Of a DNA stretch of 64,000 bases, positions 1-56,029 are shown piece by piece. The number at the start of each line of letters is the position of its first letter. Position 1 is the stretch's first letter. Source of the DNA: Apostichopus japonicus. Lineage: Eukaryota > Echinodermata > Holothuroidea > Aspidochirotida > Stichopodidae. The notes beneath the pieces are model-generated. The model was given only the letters and a program-made list of their open reading frames with translations. It did not search any database and was not told the origin of the DNA. The stretch is taken from assembly GCF_037975245.1 (NCBI RefSeq), contig NC_092561.1, positions 2,619,501-2,683,500 of the forward strand. Direction: 5' to 3'. Both the position numbers and the translations under genes were made by a program.

Positions 1-818
1 TCACATGTACAGCTCAGACAGATGTCTGCACTGTTTTCAAAATTGGTATTAATCTAGTCGGCTGATTTCTTTGATACACTGTTCAATAATGTTAAACCAT
101 TGATACATTTTTCAATATGTTATCTAAAGTGCTGTTCAGTTTAATAGTGCTCTGTGTTTGTGATACTACTATGTATGATTAAAACAGCTAATGTGTAACC
201 TGATTGGTCCCTCAATATCACATGCCAAATCTTAACAGTGCTCAGTGTCAAGCTAATGAAACATTGATATGGAGATATTATACTCCATTATAAGAAGTTG
301 TATATCCTAAATAGACTGTATGCACAAGCTTACAATATGATTTCCACTGGCCTGAGTTTGTGTATAATGCTTATCTTGCTTTAGTTGAGAGATTACTTTT
401 ATCTTAACGATTCTCATAATTTGTAAGATAAGCAATATATGTTAGCATGTTTCTTCCATGTGAACATCAAGCCTACATTTCCTGGTAGGCTAGTTCATAC
501 TACAAACACTATACATTATTAATCCGCAGTTTTAAGCTGTTTGGTCATTCATTGTCACATGACCAAACGAAAACAACTATTTAGTCGGTGAAATTAAGTT
601 ATGATATTTAAAATTGTATTCCAAATATATAAACAAACAGGGAGAAAAAGATGAGGAAATTTGTTCCTCTGGAGAGCAACTCAACATGTCAGCACCTTCA
701 GTATACCTGCCTGAAGTCAGATAACCTGGTAGAACATCTATCCACTCCTGATTCCAACCAATATGGTTTGATACTTTATGCCTAACAATACCTCTGTTGC
801 TCTGTTTCTTTCGGTCAG
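1..818 (+). other. Probable intron of the diacylglycerol kinase gene; no exon recognised
   Basis: This AT-rich stretch ends in a pyrimidine-rich acceptor (TTTCTTTCGGTCAG) directly before the ankyrin exon at 819. I see no further ankyrin or kinase exon in it, so the upstream exons of the gene must lie outside the window. Nothing else is supported here. Confidence 0.55.
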
Positions 819-2971: not shown

Positions 2972-3449
2972 GTGGCCAACCTCTTCATGGATGAAGGGCC
3001 AACCTCTTCTAGGGGCCAACCTCTTCATGGATGAGGGGCCAAACTCTTAATGGATGAGGGGCCAACCTCTTCATGGATGAGGGGCCAAACTCTTTAATGG
3101 ATGAGGGCCAAACCTCTTCATGGATGAGGGCCCAACCTCTTCATGGATCAGGGCCAAACACTTCATGGATGAGGGGCCAACCTCTTCGTGGATGAGGGGC
3201 CAAACTCTTTAATGGATGAGGGCCCAACCTCTTCATGGATGAGGGGGGCCAAACTCTTCATGGGTGAGTGCCCAACCTCTTCATGGACGAGGGCCAAACT
3301 CTTCATGGATGAGGGCCCAACCTCTTCATGGACGAGGGCCCAACCTCTTCATAGATGTGGGCCCAACTTCTTCATGGATGAGGGCCCAACCTCTTCATGG
3401 ATGAGGCCCAACCTCTTCATAGATGAGGGCCAACCTTATCATGGATTGA
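2972..3449. repeat. Minisatellite, unit about 23-24 bp, roughly 20 copies
   Basis: Units of the type GGGCCAACCTCTTCATGGAT repeat head to tail with one- or two-base indels (variants AAACTCTT, ATAGATG, GACGAGG). The indels shift the frame, so the apparent open frame across the array is a by-product of the repeat and not a gene. Confidence 0.95.
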
Positions 3450-3554
3450 GTCTTAAAGGATCATTCCTAAGATTAATCATATTTTTATGCTGAATATATC
3501 TTGAAAACTGGTATTGGTACATTACATTACTAGCAGTGAAGTTTTATTTTTATT

Positions 3555-20603: not shown

Positions 20604-20773
20604 CAGGGCGCTAGCTCGTGTGAGTTTAATCAAAGGAGTAAACCAACAAGGTGTTTAGTCACAAGTGTAGTGATATTAGTTAGTGTACAGTGGGGACTGT
20701 ATCGTCTATAGTCCACACTGGAACAGAACTTTGCTGCACTAGAATTCGTGGTCAAGTATTAATGTGCATGAAA

Positions 20774-23700
20774 ATGTCGCCAATAGCACTAGCCTTTCTC
20801 ATCTTGGTTTCCTCCGTAACAACCTTGATATGTGCGGAACAGGAGCAGCCTACAGTGACACTCAAAGATGGTACTGAACTTGTTGGGATCTACGATGAAT
20901 TCCATAGCGATGAGTTACCAGCACACGCCAAGTTGGAAACTTATTATGGTATACCATATGCGGAGCCCCCTGTTGGAGACCTTCGTTTCAAACCTCCTGT
21001 CGCCAAAGGAAAGTTAGAGAGTCCTTTTAGTGCTTCAGAAATTGGAAAATCTTGCTTTCAGATTGATCCTGAAGTTACTGGACTTCCATTGACGAACGAA
21101 GAAATGTCAGAGGATTGCTTGTTTCTAGATGTGATTGTACCTCATCCCAGAGTAAGTTCTCCTCAATAATTGACATAAAAGTCTTAATTAACCTAAGTTA
21201 ATGAACCAGACACGTTAATCAATTCTGTCAACTGGACCATTAATATTATTGCACTACTGGAAAGAGACATATCTCGTTTCTAGTATTCTATCCAGGTCCA
21301 TTGCTATAGGGAGGTGATAATAGGCGGTGTGGAGTCGGGTGGGTGGAGGGGGGGGGGGTAGGGGGAGTTACTGATCACCTGTCTCTGAAGCAGTGCCCCC
21401 AACTTCTCGTAAGTCCGTTGCTTTGCTCTAGGTCAGTTGTAACCGGTTCAATATGCAGATCTTCTTAAAACATGGTATACTAAATGTAAAACCTACGGTA
21501 TTTGCACGCTTATAGTTGAAATAATATTGTATATGACTCTAATTGCCCAATATTGTAGACAGTATCAACTATGCAGTTGACAATGTAAACAAACAATAGT
21601 AGAATACACTCACAATAAAATGCAGTAAACGTGTAACAACGGATGATTCAGACACACATGTTGATTATTGAATTAATATTGATTAACCCAAACTGGCTAG
21701 CAATAGCCTTTCTACAGCTAAAATATTGCATATACTCAGTCGCGTATAGAAAGCTTAACAAATGTGTCAGTGGTAGGGGGGGGGGCACAACACTGCCGGG
21801 GTTTGGGGTCATTTCCCAGGAGAGTGTTATAGTGACGAACCACGTTAGCCCAGAAGAGACATTTGAAATAACATCGAAATATTACAAAGTCGAAATATGT
21901 AGACCATATTCTACTTTCTCTTAAGAAAAAAAAGAGAGCAGGCAGTTTTGTGCAGAATATTAGCGTATAAGCAATTTTATTAACTGTGCATTATTTGAAG
22001 GTTCTTGCATATTTAAATGATATTCCATAGGTAATAGAACTAAAAAAAAATGGTTGGTATGATTGCATCGCTCTTTCGTTTTGTTGGTTCAACTAATCTT
22101 GAATGATCGGAAAGTGAAGGCTAGGAGGCATAGGCGTAGGAGCCCAGTTTGATTTGGGGGGGGGGGGGGCTGTAACGACTTGCCCGAAAATATAACCAAA
22201 GTCGTTTCAATAATAATGATAATAATAATATAAGTTTAACCATTGAAAAACACACAATTTATTTCTTTCAGTAGGTGCCCTGAAAATTCTCCTCATATTG
22301 CCCGAATTTTCACAAAAATTACTTGCTTGGAGGGCTGAACCCCCCCCCCCCCCCAGCTCCCACCTCGCCTCCTATGCCTACGCTGGGAGGTGCTTACTCC
22401 TACCATTCATTCATGTTCTACGCCGCTATTACTGCATTTGCTTTACAACAATTGTTGACACGAGCGAAGGATTGATAGAGTAAAAACAAGCTTTGCAATG
22501 CATCGAGCAGTCAACAAGATGTAAAGGGACCCTTCCCTGTCCTCTACGGCTGGCACCCATCACACCTTATAGAATGATCTTGACATAGATATGTCGTAGA
22601 TCGTTGCATTTCGATAACATTTTGAAAGACCGGTTAACCGCTGTGGTTAATTGGCTGTATTATATAGGCTTATATACAGACAATTAGATCAGATGCAACT
22701 TGCACAACACTCAATGAGCAAACATAAGACATCAATGGCCTCAAATGATTTGTTTCTAATGTGTTATAGATTTGACAGGAAAACCTGGTGTTGAAGGTGA
22801 TCTAAGGGGGCGCTGCTATCTTATATGAATTTGCAAGACATGGTTTGGATGAATTATTAGAATTAATAGAAACAATGGATTCAATTTTAAAGCTTGAACT
22901 GAGGAGCCAATCATTGTTATCGTTTAGCCTCAATGTTTATTTTATTGTCTTGGATTATAGCATACCAAGACTAAAATTCTGTGTAAAGTCATCCTTTTAA
23001 TATATGTAAATTAGATTTAATTATACTGCACAAAAACCATCTTTTGATTAATTCCACAGCCAGAGAAAGCTGCTGTGTTTTTCTGGATTCACGGAGGAGG
23101 GTTTACTATAGGGGCTGGAAACATGCCACTGGGTGGTACTATTCCACTTGTTTCTTATGGCAATGTTATTGCTGTAAGCATCAACTACCGGCTGAATGCA
23201 TTTGGGTTCATGACAACAGGTAAGCTTGATATTGTGCTTACAAATTTATGTTTACAAAGTTGCCTTGTGAAAGCATACAAAAGCTTGGTGAAGAAATGAT
23301 TAGCTAACCATGTAAACGTCATAATCCCAAAGACAAGGACTCACGAAAGAACCATAATGCAATGTAATGTATGATATATGTTGCAAGTGTAATTTTCAAA
23401 TTAACTTCGTTCATAACACACATCAAGGCAACTTCGCTAGCCTCGCGAAAACTTCCGGACGGTATCTATATAGTTGCTTATTGTTTTCTCTTTTTAGTTT
23501 CGAGAGAAAACTTTTTAAGTTATCTTTCCAAGTACAATCTTCAAGTTTAATGGGAATATCAATGTTACTCCTGGTTTCAGTCCATGAACAATTGTACTGA
23601 GGTAGTATCAAGATTTGATTTGAATCATGGTACATTATGTTCAACAACTATAGCGACCATGATTGCCTGTTTCTTATTGAACTCCTGCTGGGACAATGTT

Positions 23701-26700
23701 TTCGATTAACCTTTTACTTTCACTTGGATGCTTTCTTTGACTTGGAAAGAATGGCTTCTGCGGTACAGTTTTCAGGGTCATTAGGCAATTTGTGTCTTTT
23801 ACCAAAAGTCTCCATAGGTAGCATAAAATCGTCACATTTCTATATTTTTCAACAGTTGATGACCTTATTCCAGGCAATCTTGGACTCAGGGACCAACAGC
23901 TTGCTCTCAAGTGGGTTCAGGAAAATATTGAAGGTGTGTATGACTAACATTAGAAGAAATCATACTAAAGTTCATCAATGGCATTGTTCTAGTGACAACT
24001 GAAACAGACAGGGCAAAAGTGACTCAGTGTTGTTTCATCTAAGTCCTGTCTCTGGCTGGTGATGATGATTGAGACTCCCTGGAACCATTTGGCAAAAGCG
24101 GAGAGAGCAACCCTATACTGCGAGGTAGTTTCTGTCTTTGACTTGGTATATATTAACAAGTTTGGTTTAGCTTTACTCTATATAACTTTCCCTATCGTTA
24201 ACAGTTAGAACGGCACAACGACGTTGTATAATATATTCCAGTGCGAATATTCCGGTGGAAATTTCATCACGAATTACTATTATCTGTCAGCTTATATGTG
24301 GCTGATTATCAGATGCCATGGTGTCATTAGTTAAAGATCAGGAATCTTCATAAGCATTTTTGATTTTCATCACGGTTATATACTTTCCTGACTCTACCAA
24401 GTGTTACCACCTTAACCTTAACCTTACAGCATTCGGTGGAGATCCAGAGAGGGTGACAATTGGTGGTGTTAGTGCAGGATCTTCGAGCGCTTCATTACAA
24501 ATGCTCTCACCAGACAGCAGTGGCCTGTTTAAGAATGTCATCATGCAGGTAACGACTAACATGCTAAGGCGTAAACAATACACATTATCCAAACATTTAT
24601 CCCCATTACATCTTACCCAGCAAACACAAAAACGTTTTTAAAACGTTATTAAAACGTTTTGTCTTTTGTTTTGATATCGTTATGTGTGGTGTAATAAATA
24701 TGTCTCGAAAACGTTTTCAGGCTATTATTTAAAACATTTTTTCGTTAAAAGATTAATATAACATTAATATCTCATAAAAACGTTATGCCGACGTTTTTAT
24801 AACACCACATTTAACGTCATAAAAACATACTTATATAGGCCCTTTTAAAAATGTTATGATAACGGTTTGTGTTTTCTGGGTAGTACGGGTAATCGTGTAC
24901 GTATAAGTCCTGAACATCACGCTAAGTGCTTACCACACAGTACAAATTACAAATTACTTGTCCGTGTTTACGTTTATCAACTTAGTATCGCCATGACCTT
25001 TAATACCGCTTCATCTAAGAACAAAGTTAACTTTATCTCTATTGTTAAGAAAAACATGTTTGCTTTCTTCAGTGGATATGCAAAGTCTTTACATGTAAGA
25101 ATGGCATTTCTTGTTCACAAATATCATTCAGCCTTTTGTAGAACATCTGTCAATTAACATTCTTGGAAATTAACACTATCACTGATTGCTCAGAATATTT
25201 ATCAATTATATGTGAATATATTTAAACAGAGTGGATCTTTATTGGATGTGTGGAATACATTCCGTTCTCCCGAGGATGGTAGGAGGGAGGTAAAGGCGAT
25301 GGCTAAGCTGTTGGAATGCAGCCCAGAAGACATCGAAGATGACCCCAAATTGTTACAATGTCTATTAGCTGCCCCGGCGGAAGCGATTCTTGAAATGAGT
25401 TCCAAGGTAGCGTATTCAAAAGTCCTTGCTCTGTATGGGTGGACATTGTCCTAAGGTTGCTCTAGGCAATGCAAGGATGATCCATATAATTTCATTTTTT
25501 TTCAAGCTCGTTTGACAATACCTTTAAGTTTACTTAATGTACATTTTAAGAAGGTATGATCTAAATATGTCCAATGTGAAGGCAAGCTATGAGATAGATG
25601 GAAATGAAATATTGAATTCCATAAAACAAGTCTGTCGTCATCCACTGATGCGAGCCAGTTTCGAAACGGCATACAATACACCCATCGCATATCAAACCAC
25701 ATATACTCATTTTACCTAATCGAAGAGAGTTGTAAAAAGCGCAGAAACATATCACATATTATCCTATATACAAACGTAAATACCTACCTTCATACCTATA
25801 TGGGCTTCCCACAATCTTCACCTCACCTAGCTGTTACTGCTTGTATCAACATTCCATTGAAGTATTAGCTGATATTTTAATTTGTTCAATTCAACCCGAG
25901 CATCAACATTACTGGCAAACTGTGAACTCATATAATCTAATAAATCGAGCTACCAAAGTATCTATTAGACCATGGAGACTTTACCTCCATGATTAGACAT
26001 AACTAAAATCTGTGCGGGTTCCTCACTCCTTAATCGAATGTTTTACTGTCTCCACAGTAATACTTCATATAGTAGTTATAAACATCCACACTCTTGTCTT
26101 TTCAGGTAGGTGAAGAACTAGGCAATCCCGGTTTGCCATCTCCCGGGCCAAGCCTGGACGGAGTGTTCCTCCCACAAGACCCTCTATCACTGATAGAAGC
26201 AGGCAAGATAAATGGAGAAAACGTGATTGTTGGCACCAACGCGGAAGAAGGGACCTTATTTCTCTATATGATATCTCAAGACAAAGAAGTTAGACCAAAA
26301 GTTAACTCTACCACATTCGGCGTGGCTCTTTCTTTATTGTTTAACGATAACATAGATCCTGCTCTTCACGACCTCATAAAGTTGATCTATGCTCCTGATC
26401 CCAGCATCTTGCTCGATGAATCCAGAGATGACTTCTTCAAAGAAGTTACACAATACTTAGGTGATCGTACATTTTTGTGTTCGGAATCCAAGTTCGGTAG
26501 AAAGGTGTCACCATTCCTTGACGTCTATAGATATACAATGACGTATGTCCCTTCCAAAAACTTTGTGGACATCAAGTGGGCGGGCGCCGCGCATGGAGAT
26601 GACATACAATACGTTTCAGGAGGTGTTTTTGAAGGGAAATTCTACAATGAGTCCACTGAAGAGGAGAAAGTTTTATCGAGAAAAGCTTTAAGTTACTGGG

Positions 26701-27934
26701 TCAATTTCATTCAAACAGGGTGAGATTTTTTGTTGATACCAAATTACACTTTGTAAATCTTTGCAGATTCCGGTTTCACATATATTGATTTTGAATAATT
26801 CTGGAATAACTTTTAGTGCCTGAAATAGAGCGTTATGTTTCGCTTTTAACACATTTCCATTAACTCCATTTTACGAATTAATTCTCTTCATTTAATTTGC
26901 CTTTTGCTACAGAAATCCCAACACACCCGAAGATGCCGAGCCAAATTCGCTTCCCATTTGGCCTAAGTTTACGAAAGAAGATGAACTGTTTAAAGATTTA
27001 ACACCCGCTATGAACAACATATACATGAAACGAAGAGAATGTTACTTTATTGAACATGTCTTGCCGCCCTTAAAGAAAGCATTTGGTAAGTATATATATA
27101 TATATCGATACCTTGCCGTGATGTGATGAAAGTGGAGGGGATGTGGCGGGGTCACAGTTTACATCATAGATATAAAGCTGTGATTGAATTGTCCTATAGA
27201 GTGAAATATTCAGTGGCGCCACCACAGGTTGGCGCGGAGCGTACACGATTTTTTGAGTAAAGATATTCCCTCAATCGCCGGAAATGGCCCATTCCGGGCC
27301 TTGCTAATTTGCAGATAAACGAAGAATAAATAGGTGTCATCGCCATTTTGTCATAAAATTACACCAACAAAATGTGACGAATGTCAATAGGTATTTGAGA
27401 GCGCAATAAAAAAAAAGGCCAATAATCGCGAATGAGTAAAAAGTGGTAAAAAGCTGAAAAGGGCGCCAGCAGTCCATTTGAGTCCGTCGGGGGGGGGGGG
27501 GGGCATCCGCCCACTCTGACTGTATGAACGCTACGCCACTGAAAATATTATTCCAATTCTCTGAATAAACGATGGCTACCATCGGTGCATGTTGCTTGTT
27601 CCTTTCGAAGGGAGGGTGTAGGGGTAGCAAAATATATTGTATCATGTTGGGGTTATGTCATTTGCTGCAGACGCTAATCTAAGTTCTCAAGCATAGGTAA
27701 TCTTTGAAACTTATAAGATTGGAAACAAAATGCGACCATGAAGTTATACCTATCCCTATAGAAGACAAAAAATGAATTGTAACCACTAATTAGGCCAACA
27801 ATGCTGTTTTCATTTCAGAGGAATTGAAAGAACTGAGACTGAAGAGAGACGAACAGTCAAAATGGTCCGAAGAGGGACAATGCGAGGGAGAGTCTTGTCA
27901 TCAGGATCAACCCCCAGTGGAAAATGAACCTTGA
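20774..27934 (+). CDS. Secreted type-B carboxylesterase / cholinesterase-like hydrolase, copy 1 (8 exons, about 604 aa)
   Basis: Coding exons: 20774-21151, 23060-23219, 23856-23933, 24430-24548, 25230-25406, 26106-26719, 26913-27085, 27819-27934. All have AG/GT borders and matching phases, for a total of 1815 nt. ATG 20774 is chosen because it starts a hydrophobic signal peptide that aligns with the paralogue; ATGs at 20762 and 20768 are in frame too. The protein is an alpha/beta-hydrolase of the carboxylesterase type-B family. Visible features are [17 protein letters not shown], the EDCLFLDV cysteine motif, oxyanion-hole HGGGF (about 137-141), nucleophile elbow GGVSAG (Ser about 220), acid Glu about 352 in AEEG, and His about 467 in AAHGDD. 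The triad is intact, so an active secreted ester hydrolase is likely; the substrate is unknown. Most relatives have Glu before the nucleophile (GESAG); here it is Val. The usual NYRLGVFGF reads NYRLNAFGF. The C-terminus is short, charged and Cys-containing, with no membrane anchor evident. Confidence 0.92.
22127..22385. mobile_element. Short inverted-repeat element in intron 1 of esterase gene 1
   Basis: ATAGGCGTAGGAG near 22131 and CTCCTATGCCTAC near 22370 are imperfect inverted ends (11 of 13 positions), enclosing a G-tract and a C-tract. The ends resemble those of the elements at 35764 and 45691. No clear target duplication is seen. Confidence 0.45.
24614..24883. mobile_element. MITE of about 270 bp in intron 4 of esterase gene 1
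   Basis: TACCCAGCAAACACAAA at the left and TTTGTGTTTTCTGGGTA at the right are inverted ends with TA at both borders. The interior is rich in AAAACGTT/AACGTTTT words. MITEs with CCCAGCAAACACAAAAACG-type ends are, as I recall, widespread in animal genomes. There is no coding capacity. Confidence 0.75.
27211..27541. mobile_element. Non-autonomous hAT-type element (331 bp) in intron 7 of esterase gene 1, inverted relative of the 18.8-kb copy
   Basis: Begins CAGTGGCGCC and ends ACGCCACTG. Flanking octamers GAAATATT and AAAATATT agree at 7 of 8 positions. The interior matches the 18792-19159 element in reverse orientation, including GGCGCGGAGCGTAC, GGAAATGGCCCATTCCGGG, the TAAACGAAGAATAAATAGGT segment and GGCGCCAGCAGT. 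Confidence 0.85.
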
Positions 27935-34754: not shown

Positions 34755-34950
34755 CAAGGAGCTATAGCTCCATGATAAAACCGACCATACAGTGTGTGCG
34801 TATCGTACCGTGAGTGTACTGTGTTCGGCAGGCAGTACTCGGCAAATCGAAATCAGCAAACCATACCCAGACCGGGTGCATAGTAATAAACAGTTATACA
34901 GTTGGACTAAAAGCGTACTTACAACACTAGGCAGGAATACATACGCCAGG

Positions 34951-37900
34951 ATGTCACGGCTTAAGTTAGCTGCCTTTCTTCTTTGTGTTTTCGTGGTGTC
35001 GCCCGTCAGATCGGCGGACGACCAACAGCCTAAAGTGACCCTCAAAGATGGTACTGAACTTGTAGGAATCTACGATGAATTCCACAGCGATGATTTACCA
35101 GCACACGCCAAGTTGGAAATCTATTATGGTATACCATATGCGGAGCCCCCTGTTGGAGACCTCCGTTTCAAGAATCCTGTCGCGAGAGGCAAGTTGGAGA
35201 GCCCTTTCAGTGCTACGGAGGTTGGAAAGTCTTGCGTTCAGATGGATCCTAAACTTACAGAAATTCCATTGACCAACGAAGAAATGTCCGAGGATTGCTT
35301 GTTTCTAGATGTGACCGTGCCTCACCCTAGAGTAAGTGTGTAACTCAATTCTTTTTCGTATCTCGTTTTCGTAACTCTTTTTCGTAACTCAATGCTTTTT
35401 CGTATCTCGAGTGTTAAAATTAAGTTCAATAACGTAAAAGATTTCAGTAAGTACCACCAAATCTGCTGAAATGATATCCATCCAAAATACGACAAGATGC
35501 ACACAATTTTTCAACAATTTTGTGAAGCAATTAGCTTCAACCACTGTCCTTTATATGACAGTTTGAAAGGTTTTTTTTCCAGCTGTATTGACCCATCTTT
35601 ATAACGTACGTTAAAGCCTGCAAAGAATCAAACGTGTTTTGCCTGTAAAAATATATAACTTCTATAGAAAGATGAACCTTCTGACAGTTCATTACAGTAT
35701 TGTCGGTAACTAAACTTCATACACGACAGTTTAATAGATTATACAATCTTTCTGGCCTAACAGCAAGGGCGTAGGAACCGGGGGGCTGGGGGCGCCAACC
35801 TCCCCCAGTGAAATATATGGGGGGCGGAAGTATCATCCCGCCCCCCCCCCGCTTCGCAAGTCAGAAAACCCCTTTTTCATTTCCAAATGAGAAAAAAATC
35901 TCATTTGGAGCACCAAATTGCATCAAAGGCCAGGTGAATGTGCAAAAATTAATTACAAAATGGAGTGGGTGTTGAAGTGTGCTATATTGCACCAAATTGC
36001 ATCTGAGGCCACCTGGAAATGCAAAAAAAATTCCACCCCCTCCCCTTAGACCCCTCCCCCAGGCCGGTCATCAGTCTTCAGCCCCCCCTCCCCACTCAAA
36101 AGTACCTTCCTACGCCACTGCCTAATATGAACGGACAATAAACGTTACGACAAGATACATTAATGTTCGGGGTTTTACATATACGTACAGTACAACTTTT
36201 ATGTTCTAATCCCTTGCACTGGAGGTTGATGCAGACGGTTATGGCAAGCCATGTGGGACAAACACTGCATAATAAATATATCAGCGTATTAATCGTAATT
36301 TATACGCGTATTATTTGGAATATATACGCGTATATATTATTAGCCAATCATATGGCCCAAATATATCCGCGTATTAATTCGAATATATACACGTCTTAAT
36401 TCGAATATATTCACGTATTAAATAGAATACATATGGGGATTAAATACAATATATGCACGGATTAATTAGAATGTACTCGAAAACACATTTCCGCTCTTGC
36501 TGTGTACATTACCAACAATTACCAATACCAACGATAAATGTTATGGCGGGCTCGCGAGATCGCTTCAAAAAGCGAAACTTTACACATGTACAACACATAT
36601 ATATTCGAATTAATACGCGTATAAATTCGAATTAATACGCGGTTATGCGGTGTTTGTCCCACATGGCTTGCCATATGCGTCGGTTTATATTCATGGTAAA
36701 CACAGACGACACGATCCAGTAGGTTTGTCCTTGAAGCATTACGTAATGTTGTAGTGGTATGAGTGGTTTATGTAAATTAACATAACATACAAAGACGTTA
36801 CTGCAAGGTTGTAATGCATTGGATGGTGTCCTAAGAACGTTCAGCAATCGCATGGCCATTCTTAAAAACGTAACTTGAACATTACTATATCACACATGCT
36901 GTCGCCAGCCTGTCGGTATGTTATTCCATAGCCTTAAAAACAAATGGAATATAGATAATTAAGTATGTAAATAATAATCAAAATGAGGGAAATGATGCGC
37001 TTTCTCTATAAAATTACATCTCGTTTGATTACACAGCCAGAAAAAGCTCCTGTAGTCTTTGGGATCCACGGTGGAGGTTTCACTATAGGAGCTGGAAACA
37101 TGCCATACGCAAGTTTTAGGCCAACTGTTGCTTATGGTAATGCCATTGTGGTAACCATGAACTACAGGCTTGGTGTATTTGGATTCTTGACAACCGGTAA
37201 GTCATGTTATATTTGCCAATGCTATAATCTAATCTCAGAAATCAGTAAGAACGAGTACAGATGACTGTCCACGCGTATATGTTTTTTTTTTTTTTTATCA
37301 TTTAATCCTTTCGTTTCTTATTAGCAACAATTTCATCCACCGAATTGTCTAGATTTAAACAAGGAGTTGCTAGAGCTCCTGATGTTAATAGTTTTATGAT
37401 TATCTTGAGGGTATAGTATACTGTACTTCCATGTTATGACTGTGTGCCTTGTGGGGCAGGGTGTGCTGAGGGGTGCAAACTTGTACTTTAATATGGAGAC
37501 ACTTTCAATGTCTTGAAAATGCTTGAGTATAGAGGTAAATGTTTTGTAATCGATTGTGTAAGGCAGGACCGCCGAAAATGTTAATCCAGTCAAGATAAAC
37601 AAAACAAAAATTAGCAAATTCTTTTCACTAATCGGGGTATGTTGGCCCTTGATTTAAGACCTAGTTCCGATGTTTCATACCTCTTACCCTCGTATGAAAT
37701 TAACTGAGAACACTGGTGTAATCAGATAGAGTAACGTCCTACTGGTTGATCATATGGCATCAAATACATGTTTCTGATCTTATCTTGAAACGTCTGATAT
37801 CTTAACTTGATTGGGTAGCTACAATGGTTACCGCTTAATATGGCCTGGTATGTTGATAAAATTGAGCCACGATTTATTATTAAACAATGGTTAAATTTGA

Positions 37901-40900
37901 TTTAATATGTTCTTAAATATGACTGTTCTATATAAGTAATAAAGACAACTATATATCTAATATCTGTTGATGTAAACAGTCCAGATTTGACATATCTGAT
38001 CGTATCTTCGACAGCTGATGACCTTATTCCTGCTAATCTTGGACTTAAAGATCAACAGCTTGCTTTAAAGTGGGTGAACGAAAATATTGCAGGTGGGTAC
38101 GGTTACTATGTTGATAGATAATTGGATGATGGAGAGTTCTTGGTAGCTCTGTTCAGCCACGTGAAAAGGAATGGCATAACTTACATGAAATCTATATTGT
38201 GAGGCCGAACACAAACGTGGGTGGGCAATGGGACGTGTGACATGCGTCATGCGTGATACGACACTCCAATAACAAATCTTGAGTAGAAGAACCCAATTGA
38301 TTTTGGTGCTCATCTCATGAATAATAATGAGGTCACGGGGTCAAACGTGAAAATCTCCAAATGCTAATAACTCCGCAACCGAAAGTCAGAATGTATTCAT
38401 ACTTGGTATTAATGTGTTGGTAGATAGTGGGTACATGGTAAATAATATATGTTAAAGTTGATATTATGCATATTTATTACGGGGGCGGGGCTTAAGTTGA
38501 TTTCCACTAAAATAGCTTGTAAACACGGTAACTGAACAACGACAAGTTGGATTGAAGTCATACTAGGTACATATATACGCCATAGTGAGTAGAAGAGCCC
38601 TATTGATTTTGGTGCTCATCTTATGAATATTAATGAGGTCACAGGGTCAAATGTAAACATTTTCAGAATTGAATCATACTTTGTGTGAAGGTGTTGGTAG
38701 ATAGCGGGTACATGATAATGTATGTTCAATGTGATATTATGCACATTTATTATGGGGCAGGGCTTGAGTTGATTTTTGCTAAAAATAGCTTGTAAACATG
38801 GTAAGTTAACATATTTTAGTAGGTAGGTCCAGAGTCAGTGAAAGAACCTTGTTGATCAAATTAATCAACAATGACGAAAGCTTGGGATTATAATCTCAAA
38901 TGGCAAGGAATCACAATAAGCCCACTGGCTTTCTGGTTAGCTTAAGAAAAAGAAAAGTGGGTACATGTTATTATTGACAAAAGGGGCATTTCTTATCAAT
39001 GAAACGGATACTTTCCATATTTTCATAAAAGTGATTGCATGTGACTCATGTAGTCTGCAATCCAAGTTGGCATCCGTTGGCTCTGAGTTCCGTCCCTCTT
39101 GATTAAGTAGTTGCGTGACTTACTGAGTTGCATGATGAAACACAAAGGAAGACGGCTTCTCCGCGAAAAGGAACGTGGATCAATATCTGTTCAAATAGTG
39201 ACAAACACACTTGCATTTCGTTTGTACGACGAAATCATATACGTAAAGTATCGAACTAAATTCTTTCCAAAAAAAAGTTAACAAGAAAATGGAAAAACAA
39301 GCTATTCTGACCTCATACTGATAATGGAATCGAAAGTATCAAGGTGAGTAGATGCGTATATCTTATTTGTTGATATTCATATCCTAAAATCAACTGGAGT
39401 AACAAAGATCTTGCTGGCTTATTTGTACCCTTGACAGCATTCGGTGGAGATCCAGAAATGGTAACCCTTGCTGGAATTAGTGCTGGTGCTGGTGCCGTCG
39501 GATTGCACATGTTATCTCCGGGTAGTAATGGACTATTTAAAAATGGTATCATGCAGGTGAGACGCCAGTGATTACACTATGTAACCAAAAAACATGTACT
39601 ACTTATATATTAAATGCAGTAATCCCACAAGTATGCTCACCTTAAACAGAAATCATACTGACCATTCTAAAATTTCAGATGCTATTAATATGCTACGATA
39701 AAATTGATTAAGATGGAGACATGCAGTGTTCGACTTATGGCCAAAAAATTGCATAGCAACAAATTTCGACAATTGCTATACAATATTTTTGTTGCATAGC
39801 AGTTCCCCAATATTGAATAGCAGTTTTGAAATTACCACAAAACGGACCAAATGTTGGCGATCAATGTATTAACTAGAAAATGTTTGTTTATTATTACTAT
39901 TTATACTAGTGTTGCTACGATAATCGTTTTCAATATCGGTATCGGCCGATATTTGCAATGTCGGCAGCATATCGGTATCGGTAAAATTTTGCCTAATTGC
40001 CGATAACAGCAAACCGATATTGAACTTTACTTTTTAACAGCAGAGCTACCTGTACTTATTTATACTTGCAATGATTTGTTAATCTGCCCAAGACGATCCA
40101 TTTCTTTAGCGTCAGTTAAATTCAGATTCATTTTCGATTAATATCCATGGAAACCTGACTCTTCGTAACATTTAAAAACACTTCTATGGCGCGCGAATAT
40201 AACCAATGACCTTCGTGAACCTTGGCCTACACACAGCATTAGTGCAGCATATATACACTGTACTAACCATTCATTTCCTCAAAGGCCTCCGTGAAAACCT
40301 TGAACATGATGCATACAGTAACTGCACAGTTCAGCAGTGTTGGAAAACCTTGTTCAATTTCCCGTCAACACACTGCCGATTTCCCGCCGGTGTTCGCCTG
40401 CCTAGCACGCGTAACGTGCGAGCATAAAGGCGTGGTGTCCAGGGGCCCGTCTTAGGGCTATGGTGGGGTCATGGGGTAGAACCCCTCGCGGGGATCCTGG
40501 GGCGAAAGCCCCCGAAAATTGTTGTCATTTTTTGCGATGTCTGGCGATGAAAAAATTCGCAGTTGAGGATGCAAAATACTGACAACTTTTTTTATTTAAA
40601 TTGTCACGAAACTGATGAAAATTTTAAAATGACAAGTTAAAGTAGCTATATTATGTTATAAAATGAAAAGAGATTTAATCTGTCTTTCAATCTTTAAAAA
40701 GTGCAACTTACAAAACTTCCCATATTATGAAACAAACAACGTTCAGCAAAGCCCCGTTTCTAGACTGCCTAACAATGAATAGCGTGCACTATGCGTACAT
40801 TTTTACAACTGCAGTGTTTAACCCTATACCCAACTACTGTACCACGGTACATGTGCTGCGAATTTGCCCAGGTACCTTCCCAACACTGTGAGCTCATCCC

Positions 40901-43900
40901 CTGTGTAACACCTGTTTGTTAACATTTTTTTGGCACGCTGCCAGGGAACCTTTTAGTTACGTGAGATCCGTAACCGCCGAGGTGGTCAGGCTATTTGCTT
41001 TACACTTAACTATGGTAGGATATTATTTTTTCAGGGATTTTTTTCGCTATACGGTCCAGTGAATAAGTTGTACATTGAGTATAAACTCAATAAATTATAA
41101 CTTCTACATTGTGATCGACAGTTCGTAAGTTAAGGTTTGAGTGTTTGCTCCCAAATCTGACTAGGAATTTGTATCGCACAAATCGGCACAATGTGCGATG
41201 CTGATTTGGAAACGTCTCGCAAGTTTGTCGTTTTGGATCGCATTTTGCGATGCGATACCGGAAAAGTCGAACACTGGAGACATGTGCTTTTTTTTAATTA
41301 TCAAACTTCATGATAGATCTTAATATACATACAAAACCTTTGGAAAGAGCTGTGTGTTATACTTTCTTACTTATTTATTCTATGTTCAGAGTGGATCTCC
41401 GTTTGACATGAATGAGATCATAAGTGCTTCAGTGGAGGCAAAAAGGCAAGAGGTCAAAGCGTTTGCTAAATTGTTAGGATGCAGTCCAGAAGATACCCAA
41501 GATGATGTCAAGTTGTTAAACTGTCTTTTGGTCGCCCCAGCTGAGGAGGTTCTTAACAAAATAAACCATGTAAGTTCTCAAACAATCCGTATCTTGCCGT
41601 GCTCTCTCTTCCTTTCATAGACATTGTATGTAGTTTACAATTTAATTGAAATTGTGGTGAAAACTTTAGGACGTTGATGCCAATAATGGTTAACTTATTT
41701 GTCAGAGTATTTATAGCATCGAACTTTGTAACCTTGGTTTGAAGCCATTTGCCTGGCACACAGGGCATCATATGAATTAAATCAGCCCACAATAGCAGTA
41801 CCTACCGTTAAAATATTGAATCACAAGCCTGTGGAATGTCTCACATATGACGAGTTTTCCTCGGCCAGTTGCTGTGATTTGCTCTCAAAATGATAATTGC
41901 CGCTGGTAAATTTATATTCTAACAATAACCACGTGCAGGCATATCGCTATAATTTGAGGAGCAAAGTAAGAGATAAGATTGTAAAAGGTAGATGTTATCG
42001 CCTCCACGGAATAAAAAAAAATCGTCAAGAAAGCTCTTTGCCCTTCTGTTATCTTTAAATGCCAATGAACAAGACGCTACCGTCGTGGCACAACCACGCA
42101 AGACAAACGTTTGGTCAACTTACCAACGCGTTCCTACGTTTTTCTTCCCCAAACCTTACCACGGTAACCTACCGAATAAGAATGTTACTTAATGGCCACA
42201 TGTCCTCTCCTCTTCCAACCGGTAATTTCGTACCACCTTTACCTTCGGTGATGGTTGTGTCAGTATTTGAAATGCTTTAATGCAGCATTTTGCTCTCATC
42301 ATTTCCTTCTAGGTTGGTGCAGAGTTAGGGAACCCCCGATTGCTCCCACCTATTCCAATCATCGACGGAGATTTCCTCCCAGATCACCCTGTGACATTGG
42401 TAGAAGAAGGCAAGGTTTATGGAGAAAGTGCCATCATGGGTACTAGCGGCGATGAAGGGACTGTATTTCTCCACTCGTTGAATTTAGACAAAGAAGTGAG
42501 ACCAGTAGTTAATTCTACAACTTTCGGTACTGCTATTTCTGTGCTCTACGGTGAATATATAGATCCGGCACTCTATGACCTCATCAAGTTAATCTATGCT
42601 CCAGACCATAGCGTCTTGCTTGATGAAAATCGAGACGATTTCTTTCACGAAGCATCACAATTCTTAGGTGATCGGACATTCATGTGCTCACAGTCCCAAT
42701 TCGCAAGAGGATTATCTACTTCCATGAATGTGTATCGACATACTATGACGTACGTCCCCTCTAAGAACGTTATGGACATCAAATGGGCGGGAGCTGGCCA
42801 TGGCGACGATTGTCAATATGTTTGGGGTTTCGTTTTTGAAGAAGAAGACAGGAATCTTTTCAAAGATGAGGAAAAAGAACTATCACGAAAAGCGATGAAT
42901 TACTATGCGAATTTTTTACGAACAGGGTAAGACAGCAAATTAATACGTGTCACATTTATGCACATCAATGTGGTCTAATAGATCCATGAACTGTACACAG
43001 GAGATCATCACTTAACAAAAGTTGGCAAACATTATCGGAGGCTGAACAGATTTTTGCGACTTTCTAGTTTGGGGTTGTGCTTGCAAAACTTAAAAGCGAG
43101 TGGGAGCAAGTATATGTTGTCAAATGACCTCGAGGTTTGTAATATTTCCGCAAACCAGTGGCCGGCCCTGCCATAATACCTCGTTACATAACCATATAAC
43201 TTTGCCAGAATGATTCATTTTGTGATGATATTATAACTTCAATTTTCATTCGTGCAGAGATCCGAACGCACCAAAGGTTGGCGAAGATTCGTCACTTCCG
43301 GTTTGGCCTAAGTTTACCAAAGGAGAAGAATTGTTTAAAGATTTTACTCCCGCTTTGAACAATGTTCATATGAAGAGAAGTGAATGTTACTTCAAAGAAC
43401 ATGTTTTGCCGCCCTTGAACGAAGCATTCAGTAAGTAATGTCATTGAGATCTTTCTGATTTAATCTTCTTTAGAGGAATCTTCAATAAGAACGAAGAAAG
43501 AAAAGAGACCACGTTTGCTTACCATCTCACGAAACAAATTATACTGCAAGATGTGGAAAGGGGACTGGTAGCAGTAGTACGTATAAGAGTAGAGGTATAT
43601 GCACTCAATTTTAGCTTGAGCTAAATTTATAAAATGCTTTCTCAGCGCTTGCTCGTGGATACAATCAATTTGACCATAGGATATAGGAACGATTTCGATG
43701 AAGGGTTATCTACAGTGAATCCAGAACGAGTCATGCATTGCAACAATTACGATTCTAATCCCTTACTATGTATATAGTGACCCTTATTGAATTTTATTTT
43801 CTCTTGTCGGTGCTCTTCACATTATATATACCATGCATGTCGTCTAACGCAGGACAACGGTAGGTAGTATACGAGGACATTGTTTCCTTTCAGAAGTATT

Positions 43901-49752: not shown

Positions 49753-50442
49753 TATGGCGGGCCATCAGTCTCAAATCGTGGGGAATCGACTTATACCGTT
49801 TTATATCGACATATACCAATTTTCTTCGAATTATAGCAGTTTCCAGCAGCTTAAAATGACTTCTCAGTACCGATTTAAATCGATTTATACTAGTTTTATT
49901 CTACATATCATTGATTTAAATCGACATATACAAGTTTAATTCGACATATCATCGATTTAAATCGACATATACCAATTTAAATCGATGATAAGTAAAATAA
50001 ATCGGTATATGTCAATTTATATCGACATATACCAGTTTAAATCGATGATATGTCGAATTAAATCAGTATATGTCAATTTAAATCGACATATACCAATTTA
50101 ATTCGACTTATACCAGTTTAAATCGACATGTATCTCCACATGATGTATCTCCACATGTCAATCGTCACCAAAATCGGGATTTGGAATATGTTAAAGAGCT
50201 CAATCGATGATATGTCGATTTAAATAGGTTTAAGTCAATTTGAGTTGCTAGAAACTGGTATAAGTCTACGGAAATTGACTTTTACCGACTTAATTCGACA
50301 TATCATCGATTTAAAATGGTAGATGTCGATTTAAATTGACATATACCGATTTATTTTACATATCATTGATTTAAATTGGTATATGTCGATTTAAATCGGT
50401 ATATGTCGATACCCCACGATTTACGACTGATGGCCCGCCATA
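49753..50442. mobile_element. Foldback MITE-like element (690 bp) with palindromic ends and a dyad-repeat interior
   Basis: The ends TATGGCGGGCCATCAGTC and its inverted copy match over about 38 bp with only a few differences, bounded by TA on both sides. The tip is again a near-palindrome ATGGC-GG-GCCAT, as in the 36.2-kb element. Nearly the whole interior is made of short repeats such as TTTAAATCGACATATACC, ATTTAAATCGATGATATGTC and their complements. No protein frame is supported. Confidence 0.88.
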
Positions 50443-52075: not shown

Positions 52076-55000
52076 ATGGCTATGCCTACAGCAAAACGGA
52101 AGACCTTAGACAGGACGCTAGAGTTTTTGACTGAGGATCTTGATGTCATGCCTGCAATTATTCATCTCAAAAGTAAAGAAATTCTTAAAGACATAGACGA
52201 AGAGAAAATCAACGCCAAAGTTACAGAGAAAGAAAAAGTCATGGAGTTTGTAAAAATCGTCAAAAAGAGGGGCGAAAAGGCATACCGAATTTTCAGAGAG
52301 TACTTAGGGGTTTGTGAAGGTTCGGAACATCTAGCAGAAGAAATGGACAAGAATTTACAGGCTGTTGAAGAAGAATTACAGGGTTTAACGGTATTTATTA
52401 TGTGAAGATACATTTCAAATCATTTCCATTCTGGTTTTTAAATTAATCTTCAAGAACAATAAACTGGATACTTTGAGACCTGTTAGGAAATTGCAGGGAA
52501 TTTATTCCTGCAGACTCTTCAGTTAAAATGAAAATAAGGATAACAATCGTAGTGAAGATATGTAGAATATGAGCATTAAGCAGGGCAGGGGATAGCTGAA
52601 ATTGTGAGTTAAACACAAATTTATTTCACATTTAGAGGTTTGTGAAATGATACTGTGAAGATATTTAAATAGACCTGTGGGTTATCATCTCACCTGATGA
52701 GAAACATAACCATTGGCTATTTCGAAATAATGTTGTTTAATGTCTAAATGATGCAATTCTCTGCGTTCCCTTGACGTTTTGTCGACAATGTGTTGTGTTG
52801 GTATGTGGAGGAAAGGTATAAACATTACGACGTTCCGGTAATACGGTTTTGTCAGCTTATAGTATATTGACCATGTGCGTTAGGAAGAAATTAAGACTTG
52901 TAAAAGAGTTGGGAGAAGGAGATTTTATGACATTCGCAAATTGATTTTAGATTCTATACATAATATTTTCATTATACATATTTTCATCATATTTTTATAA
53001 TATTTTCATTGTAGAGACAAGCCGATGGAATGAAGCAGATCGAAAGATGGAAAGCCTTAGAAGAGAAATTTTATTACTTCAGCTGCAAATATGACAACAT
53101 AGGAAAGTACACAGATATTCCTGAAAAAATTAATATACTTTTGATTGGGAAAACTGGGTCCGGTAAAAGCGCCTCTGGAAACACACTTATCGGGAAACCT
53201 TATTTCAAAGAAAGTGGCACCAGTGCGTCGGTGACTAAGACAATTAGCATGAAAAACCTGAAGGAGGATAGATTTAATATTACAGTCATTGACACACCTG
53301 GTCTTTTTGACACGGCCAAAGATTTTCAAAATGAAGATTTGGTGCTTGAAATAGCGAAAACAATGATCAACTTTAAGGGAGGAATCCATCTATTTCTGCT
53401 GGTTTTGAGTTCTACAGCTAGATTCACCGAGGAGGAACAAGACACCATTAACGCCATTGAGGTAAGTTCGATTATCAAGAAGTGTTTGCAACTCTCAGCG
53501 GATGGTTTATTTCAGTCTATAGAAAGTTCCACGAAAGAGCAAGCGTGTAAACCACTGTTTGAATGCAAAGTTTGGGTTTAAGTGAATGCGTGTGTGGCAC
53601 AAAAGCAAAGTAATGAGAAACAAAGAATGAGACGACATTATGGACATAATGAAATAATGACTAAGACCGTTGCATAGTGCGCAAATTATTATCGTTGACG
53701 AGTGGTGTGCCAGTTTCTAAGTATTTATTTCCTCCACAGTTCAACATAGCCACGCCGATATTTATTATCGTAGCGTAAATGATTGTTACATGTTGAATAT
53801 GTATTTGTAACTCATAAAAGATGTTCTCATGTATGCAACTTTCATTGAATGTTTCATATTGTACCCGTACAGAACATCCTTGGCAAGAGTGTTTATCAGA
53901 ATTGCCTCGTAGTTCTGACCTACGCTCGTGCAAAATTTGGTTCTAAGGACAAGCAGTCGTTGCGTCAGTACGTTACACAGGAAAGGAAAGATGGGGGCAA
54001 GTTTGGGGATCTACTTAAGCATGTCAGCAATCGAATAATAGCCGTTGAGAATTGCTTTGAAGATGACTTTCTGACAGAGAAACATCGTCAGAAACTCCTT
54101 TGTTGTTTAGCTCAAATGATATACGACAACAAAGGGTCTGTGTATTCCAACAAGGCGTTTGAAAAAGCCAAGGCAAGAGTCGAGCAACAAGAGGCAGAAC
54201 GAGAGAGACGTGTCGCCAGGGAAACCGAATTGACCTTTATGAAAACCAGGTTGCGTGAGTTTCTTTTGCAGAAATATCTGAAGCATTTAACAGAGAAACA
54301 ACTCGACAACATACTTCCAAAGGTAAGGAAGGAGATACTACACATCATGATCAGGTCTGGGGTGAAGCAATTACCTTTCATCACAAGTGAAGATGTCAAG
54401 ATATACGTAGAAAACTTCATTCAGGAAAATGAAGTCTTCATTGCAAAGTTAAAAGACGTGAAAATTCAAGAGACGATACAACAATTAGAATACGAAAAGA
54501 GAAGAGAGCGGCTGAAAGGAAAGGAGGAGATTAATAAAATGCAGAGCATTGTAATACCATTGGTAAGTAACTACTTAACACAACAGTCAAAACAAGCACT
54601 AGAACAGATAATTAGACACAAGCAACTGCCTGATGATTGTACTAATACAATATTTGCGGCTCTTGAGTCATCCAAAGTGAATGTTGAACGTCAACACATT
54701 GAACAATTTATTCAGGCAACGTTTTTTGAAAATCCTACTCAAATCCAAGGATATATAGATGGTAAAGTGTTAATAGAAAGTCTTGAAGAACAGTCAAAGC
54801 AACTGCACCAGGTCCAAAGAGAACAGAAATTAAACGGAATCATGGAAACCTTAAAAGAAAACCTTTATGTCAGTTTGGAAGGTAAAACTGACAAAGAGTT
54901 AGATGACCTAAAAACTGACTTGACGGACATGAATGACTCTGGTCCAGGTCATTGGAAACCATTATTTACTGAACTTGTGGGAAGTCAAATTGAAGGTTCT

Positions 55001-56029
55001 GATATTAGTATCATGGAAGTATCCAGTTTTTTCTTACAGCAGAATAACAATTTGCTGCAGAGTGTCTTGGGAATCCTGTTCGATAAACGACAACAACAAA
55101 GGGAGGCAAAGCGTTTGCAGGAAAGGGAAGAATTAAGGAACAGTGCCTTCAGTATCATTTCAACAGTAATTAAACAAAAACTGAAATCATACTTAACAGG
55201 TAAGACTACAAGTGAATTAACAGAAATGGAAGCACAGATAGGTAGAGGTGAGGTTCCTTCAGATGTCTGTGATAAAGTGTGTGGACACCTGACAACTGCA
55301 CAGATGCAGTCTTTAGGATTCGATGAAGTAAAAGCTGAAATAATTAAACAAATCAAAGAGCAAAACAAAGTTATTGAGGAATGTAAGAATGAGGCTGGGA
55401 GATGCTTTGCGGGTTCCACTGAAGTTAGAATCAAAGAGAGAGGCATCGCAAAAATATCCAACGTGAGAGTAGATGACGAAATTCTAGTCTTTGACGAGAA
55501 TGGGCTTCTATTCTATGATAAGGTCTATCTCATTTCTCATGCAAGAGAAGATGAAAATAATACCTTCGTCCGGTTGCAAACATCTTCAGGTAAAGACCTA
55601 CATATTTCACCAGGTCATTTATTACCTGTTGGTAGTCTTGGTAGTAACGTCGCAGCTAAGGACGTTTCCTTTGGTAGCGTCATATTTACATTACAAGATG
55701 GTGTGATGATGCCTGACAAAGTTACCTCAGTAACTTACGAGGTATGTCGAGGAGCGTATTGTCCAATGACGATGGATGGGACTATTGTTGTCAATGACGT
55801 AGCAGCATCCTGTTATACAACTTTCTTCCCATCCCCTCTTGCTCACGCTTTGCTTTCTCCCATAAGACTCCTCTTCAGTTATTTACCTCTGCCTCTCTTT
55901 AATCAATTACTTCCATATGATACTGAGGAAGGGATGCCGGTGCTGCTCCTAAAATGCCGTTCCATAATCATCAGGTTGCGTTCATGGTGTACAAGAAATG
56001 GTAACCCAAACAAAGCGTGTAGGTGTTGA
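52076..56029 (+). CDS. CARD - AIG1/GIMAP GTPase - helical repeats - Hedgehog-type Hint fusion protein (3 exons, 972 aa)
   Basis: Coding exons 52076-52390, 53015-53461 and 53873-56029 join in phase 0 at both introns. The ATG at 52076 has a good context (AAAGATGG). Residues about 8-95 form a six-helix CARD-like death fold (EKINAKVTEKEKV, VKKRGEKAYRIFREYL, SEHLAEEM). Residues about 140-345 are an AIG1/GIMAP GTPase: P-loop GKTGSGKS (150-157), DTPGLFD (198-204), the family box HLFLLVLSSTARFTEEEQ, and NRIIAVEN near the G5 position. The G4 motif is atypical (VVLTYARAKF, no RKDD-type Asp). A charged coil (EQQEAERERR) follows, then four degenerate helical repeats (about 379-475, 475-572, 573-673, 674-764). 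From Cys765 a Hint domain like that of Hedgehog C-termini begins: CFAGSTEV, ISPGHLLPV (His836, Ser833), GAYCPMTMDGTIVVNDVAAS then Cys901, and a hydrophobic tail with SPLAHALLSPIRLLF. By analogy it should self-cleave before Cys765 and release or lipidate the CARD-GTPase part. A role in innate immunity or cell death is inference. Confidence 0.88.

Follow-up and report, generated by a model that had tools for sequence, protein, structure and literature searches.

What does a Hedgehog-type Hint domain do at the C-terminus of a GTPase that begins with a death-fold domain? This question is raised by a gene in a 64,000-nucleotide stretch of DNA of the sea cucumber Apostichopus japonicus (positions 2,619,501 to 2,683,500 of NC_092561.1; hereafter the window), which lies on contig C1 (21.65 Mb) of the 671.6-Mb genome. 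The gene is a real protein-coding gene of this species. Its product joins an AIG1/GIMAP GTPase to a CARD and a Hedgehog-type Hint domain, and it is neither a Hedgehog protein nor an intein. That the CARD–AIG1–Hint order represents a real fusion is virtually certain. The new elements are the echinoderm gene family, the decay of its CARD exons where they are skipped and a family-wide change in the Hint active site.

The gene consists of three exons on the forward strand. Exon 1 (52076..52390, +; residues 1-105) is an open reading frame (ORF) that ends at a GT donor and encodes the CARD. Exon 2 (53015..53461, +; residues 106-254) is bounded by splice sites and encodes the first half of the AIG1 GTPase, including the P-loop GKTGSGKS and the DTPG motif. 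Exon 3 (53873..56029, +; residues 255-972 and the stop) is one open frame for the second GTPase half, a helical stalk, the Hint domain and a tail. Intron 1 (52391..53014, +) and intron 2 (53462..53872, +) are both GT...AG introns in phase 0, and the donor sequence of intron 1, gtatttattatg, is identical in the sister copies A2710 and D2826. The spliced product has 972 residues followed by a stop. A preliminary description, made from the sequence of the window, had proposed precisely this joining of three exons in phase 0, with correct coordinates, and had placed the Hint and the stalk in the same exon as the second GTPase half; the same open exon 3 is present in six other copies.

The three domains named in that description all exceed the curated Pfam cut-offs in the whole 972-residue protein. 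The CARD (PF00619, residues 9-90) scores 36.9 bits against a cut-off of 23.9, the AIG1 domain (PF04548, residues 145-361) 150.8 bits against 27 and the Hint domain (PF01079, residues 761-922) 103.8 bits against 29.7, so that strong Hint homology lies downstream of residue 765, where it had been predicted. The ORFs of exon 1 and exon 2 alone match CARD at 43.1 bits and AIG1 at 107.1 bits, respectively. Sequence searches of the PDB match the protein to GIMAP7 (5.6e-24) and Hedgehog (2.5e-16), with 'Cell death protein 3' (2e-4) as the match of the CARD exon. Pfam detects no Hedgehog N-terminal signal domain in the 972-residue protein at E up to 1. No signal peptide is seen in the protein, and the CARD–AIG1–Hint GTPase is probably cytosolic.

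Two terms of the preliminary description need qualification. Its 'helical repeat region' corresponds to the stalk (54194..55402, +; residues 362-764), which is indeed helical in the predicted model of the sister protein P0002 (predicted local distance difference test, pLDDT, 67-90) and appears to comprise about four long-helix modules; these modules are divergent, and their repeat signal is weak. The 'self-splicing-type' Hint is, as proposed, C-terminal and of the Hedgehog type, but the label of splicing does not fit. Inteins need a C-extein and a terminal His-Asn for splicing. The Hint core ends in the SCY motif and is followed by a tail and the stop, with no C-extein, which eliminates the intein reading; cleavage or transfer is therefore expected instead of splicing.

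The gene belongs to a tandem family. An AIG1 profile search of the genome gives 36 matches, and the locus count refers to the regions around those at 1.19-1.22 and 2.71-2.92 Mb of C1 and on C7, with the matches on C8, C16, C20 and C1:15.09 Mb left out. In these regions, eight Hint-bearing loci lie on C1, all on one strand: the window copy, the array copies A2710, B2772, C2794, D2826, E2863 and F2911 within approximately 250 kb downstream, and G1194 at 1.2 Mb. The large exon for the stalk, the Hint and the second half of the GTPase is open in seven of the eight, and splice sites and phase are conserved. Frame changes and stops disrupt the copy D2826, whose CARD exon has lost its ATG and contains two stops. 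Two stretches on C7 (8.0 and 8.5 kb) contain AIG1 without a Hint match. Among the ten stretches scanned for Hint, L015, L017 and L018 gave no match, and L011 matched only after extension. A second AIG1 lies upstream in B2772, C2794, E2863 and F2911.

Annotated proteins match several of these loci. The joined exons of A2710 (C1:2711158-2715071, 40 kb downstream of the window copy) encode 970 residues that are contained letter for letter in the NCBI protein P0002 (977 aa, with seven extra N-terminal residues), and P0002 is thus not an orthologue from another species. P0002 (86% identity) and P0003 (89% over 91%) are the nearest single-GTPase NCBI proteins to the window copy. Two GTPases are annotated in P0005 (B2772), P0001 (C2794) and P0004 (E2863), each of which has a single N-terminal CARD and a first stalk that runs directly into the second GTPase exon, whereas P0007 (G1194) retains two CARDs. 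Exon 2 of B2772 as taken here lacks its last codon, which is present in P0005.

Are the CARD and the GTPase really joined? The two-GTPase copies provide a natural comparison. A CARD-like exon remains between the two GTPases in B2772, E2863 and F2911, and the annotated proteins of B2772 and E2863 leave it out (no protein was matched to F2911). These internal relics contain three, four and five stops, respectively, of which two, four and four fall inside the BLAST-aligned part, the remaining one in B2772 and in F2911 lying upstream. In the window copy, A2710 and G1194, the CARD exon has an open frame, and the ratio of nonsynonymous to synonymous substitution rates (omega, dN/dS) is 0.30 for the window copy and A2710 and 0.13 for the window copy and G1194; dN reaches dS in 33 and 0 of 1000 bootstraps, respectively. 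Thus, CARD exons that are skipped, or that lie in a copy broken as a whole, have decayed, and those in use have been preserved, which answers the worry over exon joining without transcripts. The proposed join of the CARD exon to the GTPase exon is borne out by the annotated sister protein P0002 and by the unbroken frame of P0008, a relative from beyond the species. An assembly or exon-joining artefact is rejected on account of the same joins in P0002, the conserved splice sites and phase and the unbroken frames of P0008 and a further relative, P0010.

These relatives probably extend the architecture to other animals. P0008 combines CARD, AIG1 and Hint at 44% identity in a 975-residue unbroken frame on a 5,225-nucleotide contig, and P0010 combines AIG1 and Hint at 35% identity in a 977-residue unbroken frame on a 3,694-nucleotide contig; judging from the sequence lengths, both are most simply transcripts of other animals. 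The N-terminus of P0010 is DED-like below threshold, and its sequence suggests that the death-fold part may be exchangeable. P0121, on a 10.8-kb contig, begins at about the boundary of exon 3, which fits a genomic exon, and P0033 of Holothuria leucospilota contains AIG1 and Hint with a partial CARD. In the sponge Amphimedon, P0122 carries a Hint domain inside a protein with multicopper-oxidase Pfam domains.

The preliminary description knew of no protein with this domain order, but such proteins have been described. Lancelet GIMAP-like CARD+AIG1+HINT proteins are published (PMC12373286, PLoS Genet 2025), and the available text of other reports presents AIG1 with a C-terminal Hint in coral (PMC3723955), AIG1 with Hint as well as CARD with AIG1 in snail (PMC7053062) and AIG1 with Hint in the fungal GmGIN1 (PMC2362128). 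The lancelet paper states of the recurring architectures with CARD and HINT that they are "unique to amphioxus among animals" and otherwise confines CARD+AIG1+HINT to a few multicellular fungi. The echinoderm copies contradict this amphioxus-only claim, so that the fusion either goes further back in deuterostomes or arose at least twice. As far as these sources go, the sea cucumber and lancelet proteins share the three domains and their order, an invertebrate deuterostome host and membership in an expanded immune-type family, but the sea cucumber set is an echinoderm tandem family with some two-GTPase members. The coral, snail and fungal proteins likewise place a Hedgehog-type Hint after an AIG1-type GTPase, but the available text describes no CARD together with Hint in one protein there. 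No description of sea cucumber CARD–AIG1–Hint members was found in the open-access papers searched. The architecture alone adds a member; it is the active site that departs from the characterised Hint.

The Hint core (55403..55813, +; residues 765-901) is compared here with the Hedgehog C-terminal autoprocessing domain (1at0, 6tyy). In the structural alignment, local residues 13..150 of the Hint model pair with Hedgehog 258..401. Cys765 (55403..55405, +) takes the place of Hedgehog Cys258 and is the predicted nucleophile (Cys1), with the predicted cleavage site between residues 764 and 765. Cys901 (55811..55813, +) of the SCY motif corresponds to Hedgehog Cys400. Ser833-Pro-Gly-His836 (55607..55618, +) corresponds to Hedgehog T326xxH329 with Ser for Thr. 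The window copy was compared beside the 12 proteins of an alignment (A1). The equivalents of Cys1, His329 and Cys400, the last in its SCY motif, are kept in 12/12 of these proteins, down to 25% overall identity, and the window copy shares the nucleophile. The Thr326 position is Ser in all 12 and Thr in the fly, human and sponge domains. Hedgehog Asp303 is the general base that activates the cholesterol hydroxyl. Its position is occupied by His810 (55538..55540, +) at an equal offset (45) from the nucleophile, and His is found there in 12/12 proteins and 7/7 array copies, as opposed to Asp in fly, human and sponge Hint. A further change affects the GAYxP motif: Cys884 (GAYCPMT; 55760..55762, +) is Cys in 12/12 proteins and Ala in fly, human and sponge Hint. 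In addition, the residue before the nucleophile is variable, and a CARD and a GTPase replace the Hedgehog ligand. Fly Hedgehog with the D303H substitution is reported to retain activity (PMC9163320). The idea that the Hint could be active is consistent with this arrangement, in which the domain appears catalytically equipped, with Cys765 at the place of Cys258.

The tail (55814..56026, +; residues 902-972) is predicted to form a helix-loop-helix where Hedgehog has its sterol recognition region. The model contains helices at local residues 156-172, 175-181 and 192-210, mostly at a pLDDT of 52-67, and the tail motif LAHALLSPIRLL is similar to fly LAHWGLAPMRLL. At its very end (window 56009-56026), the window copy reads ...KACRC where several sister copies read ...KSV, a small frame difference that produces a C-terminal Cys-X-Cys.

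Substitution rates of the parts of the protein were compared by Nei–Gojobori counts in a set from which D2826 was left out. For the window copy, the Hint omega is 0.30-0.32 against A2710, B2772, C2794 and E2863, 0.53 against F2911 and 0.17 against G1194, and the stalk omega is 0.89, 0.75, 0.53, 0.65, 0.73 and 0.33 against A2710, B2772, C2794, E2863, F2911 and G1194. The stalk omega ranges from 0.53 to 1.04 among array copies. In the same order of comparison, the Hint dN is lower than the stalk dN in 997, 1000, 895, 1000, 1000 and 1000 of 1000 bootstraps. The GTPase omega against G1194 is 0.15-0.19.

What, then, would the Hint do? We propose that the Hint folds and that Cys765 attacks the preceding bond in an N-to-S acyl shift to form a thioester. 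This intermediate would be resolved by an acceptor that the helical tail binds, most probably a 3-beta-hydroxysterol (or by water), to free an 88.1-kDa CARD–GTPase–stalk from a 23.1-kDa Hint (computed masses). The freed protein would bear the acceptor at the stalk end and thereby be anchored to a membrane, where GTP-driven assembly may cluster the CARDs and so feed caspase or NF-kB-type signalling. In this scheme, the protein would work most like a guanylate-binding protein (GBP), with a GTPase, a helical stalk and a lipid at the end, except that the lipid would be added by the protein's own Hint. The low-confidence full model matches GBP1 (1f5n) in Foldseek, with a GTPase and a helical stalk in common and, by analogy, a possible lipid at the stalk end, but the sea cucumber GTPase belongs to another family. 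In GBPs, the farnesyl group is attached by a separate enzyme. Some vertebrate GIMAPs carry a C-terminal membrane anchor; the sea cucumber protein shares their AIG1 GTPase (GIMAP7 is the best match) but has a CARD in front, a long helical stalk and the Hint at the place of the anchor. Self-cleavage of some kind is likely, and transfer to a sterol or another lipid is an evenly balanced prospect, as is the proposal as a whole, in which self-cleavage leaves an acceptor, likely a sterol, on the stalk end. A bolder version, in which sea cucumber CARD–GIMAPs esterify their own stalk end with unusual Delta7/Delta9(11) sterols outside the secretory pathway by means of a naturally evolved Asp-to-His Hint, is doubtful.

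Several observations count against self-cleavage with lipid transfer. Two Hedgehog catalytic residues are changed (Thr326 to Ser and Asp303 to His), and at the position of the Hedgehog Gly before the nucleophile, the window copy has Arg and the A1 proteins have T, I, E, S, K or G (Gly in 1/12). In the tail, for which the model confidence is low, no counterpart of HWY, the second motif of the sterol region in Hedgehog, is seen. Sea cucumbers can obtain cholesterol from the diet (PMC9236903), and unusual sterols therefore need not have driven His to the Asp303 position. Among the NCBI proteins returned, none was seen that is exact to the window copy, or to F2911. The GTPase omega of 0.35-1.07 among array copies indicates no clear constraint, the Hint omega equals or exceeds the stalk omega in 3, 66, 83, 30, 202 and 35 of 1000 bootstraps (A2710, B2772, C2794, E2863, F2911 and G1194), and the tail omega is greater than the Hint omega in 14 of 20 scorable pairs. 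The tails of E2863 and F2911 (L013 and L014) have zero substitutions over 54 codons, whereas their upstream parts differ. Gene conversion in places is likely because these tails are identical, and it could also keep the Hints alike; low dN alone is thus no proof.

The strongest competing explanation, although a rather unlikely one, is that the Hint is a switchable protease only, in which water resolves the thioester and a soluble CARD–GTPase–stalk is released without lipid. Such a protease would retain Cys1 and His329 while Asp303 is changed to His, Thr to Ser and the -1 Gly lost, as is seen here, and hydrolysis is a side reaction of Hedgehog (PMC9163320). However, the retention of a tail of approximately 70 residues with predicted helices after the Hint and the reported activity of D303H Hedgehog (PMC9163320) argue for more than proteolysis. 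Less probable still is a Hint that has lost cleavage and acts as a structural cap or a redox latch (e.g. Cys765–Cys901 or Cys884). The two substituted catalytic residues and the extra Cys, invariant in 12/12 proteins, would suit such a role, but the Cys1, His329 and Cys400 equivalents are equally invariant even at the lowest overall identity, and the active D303H Hedgehog (PMC9163320) again speaks for catalysis. A thioester that couples the GTPase to a pathogen molecule or a partner protein, as complement thioesters do, is highly improbable: the freely varying -1 residue and the fast evolution of the stalk among array copies, as for a part that faces a changing partner, agree with it, but the modelled tail resembles a built-in acceptor site. 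Finally, a mis-joined gene model, for which the lack of an annotated protein of the window copy among those returned speaks, is hardly credible in view of the same joins in the sister-copy protein, the conserved splice sites and phase, the constraint on CARD exons in use and the decay of skipped ones, and the unbroken P0008 and P0010 frames.

The window contains several other features upstream of the CARD–AIG1–Hint gene. Two tandem carboxylesterase-type genes (20684-26723 and 34768-42930) both match the start and the later part of the COesterase profile. Dense short repeats of the 'atatgtcgatttaaatcg' kind, seen by eye, occupy positions 50000-50420 immediately upstream of the gene. An open frame of repeated 'FMDEGPTSSWMR'-like units (3173-3493) matches nothing in Pfam at E up to 0.01 and is probably a translated tandem repeat, and an ankyrin-repeat exon (752-1099) lies close to the left window edge.

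What would the Hint mean for this family? If it is active, an innate immune GTPase would be matured by autoproteolysis, possibly with its own sterol, through chemistry otherwise described for Hedgehog. The family also supplies a natural His303 and Ser326 Hint for comparison with the engineered D303H. If the CARD–GIMAPs do esterify their own stalk end, Hint-mediated sterol attachment would not be confined to Hedgehog morphogens, and membrane anchoring would be coupled to death-fold signalling; the AIG1–Hint proteins of fungi, corals, snails and lancelets could then share such self-lipidation.
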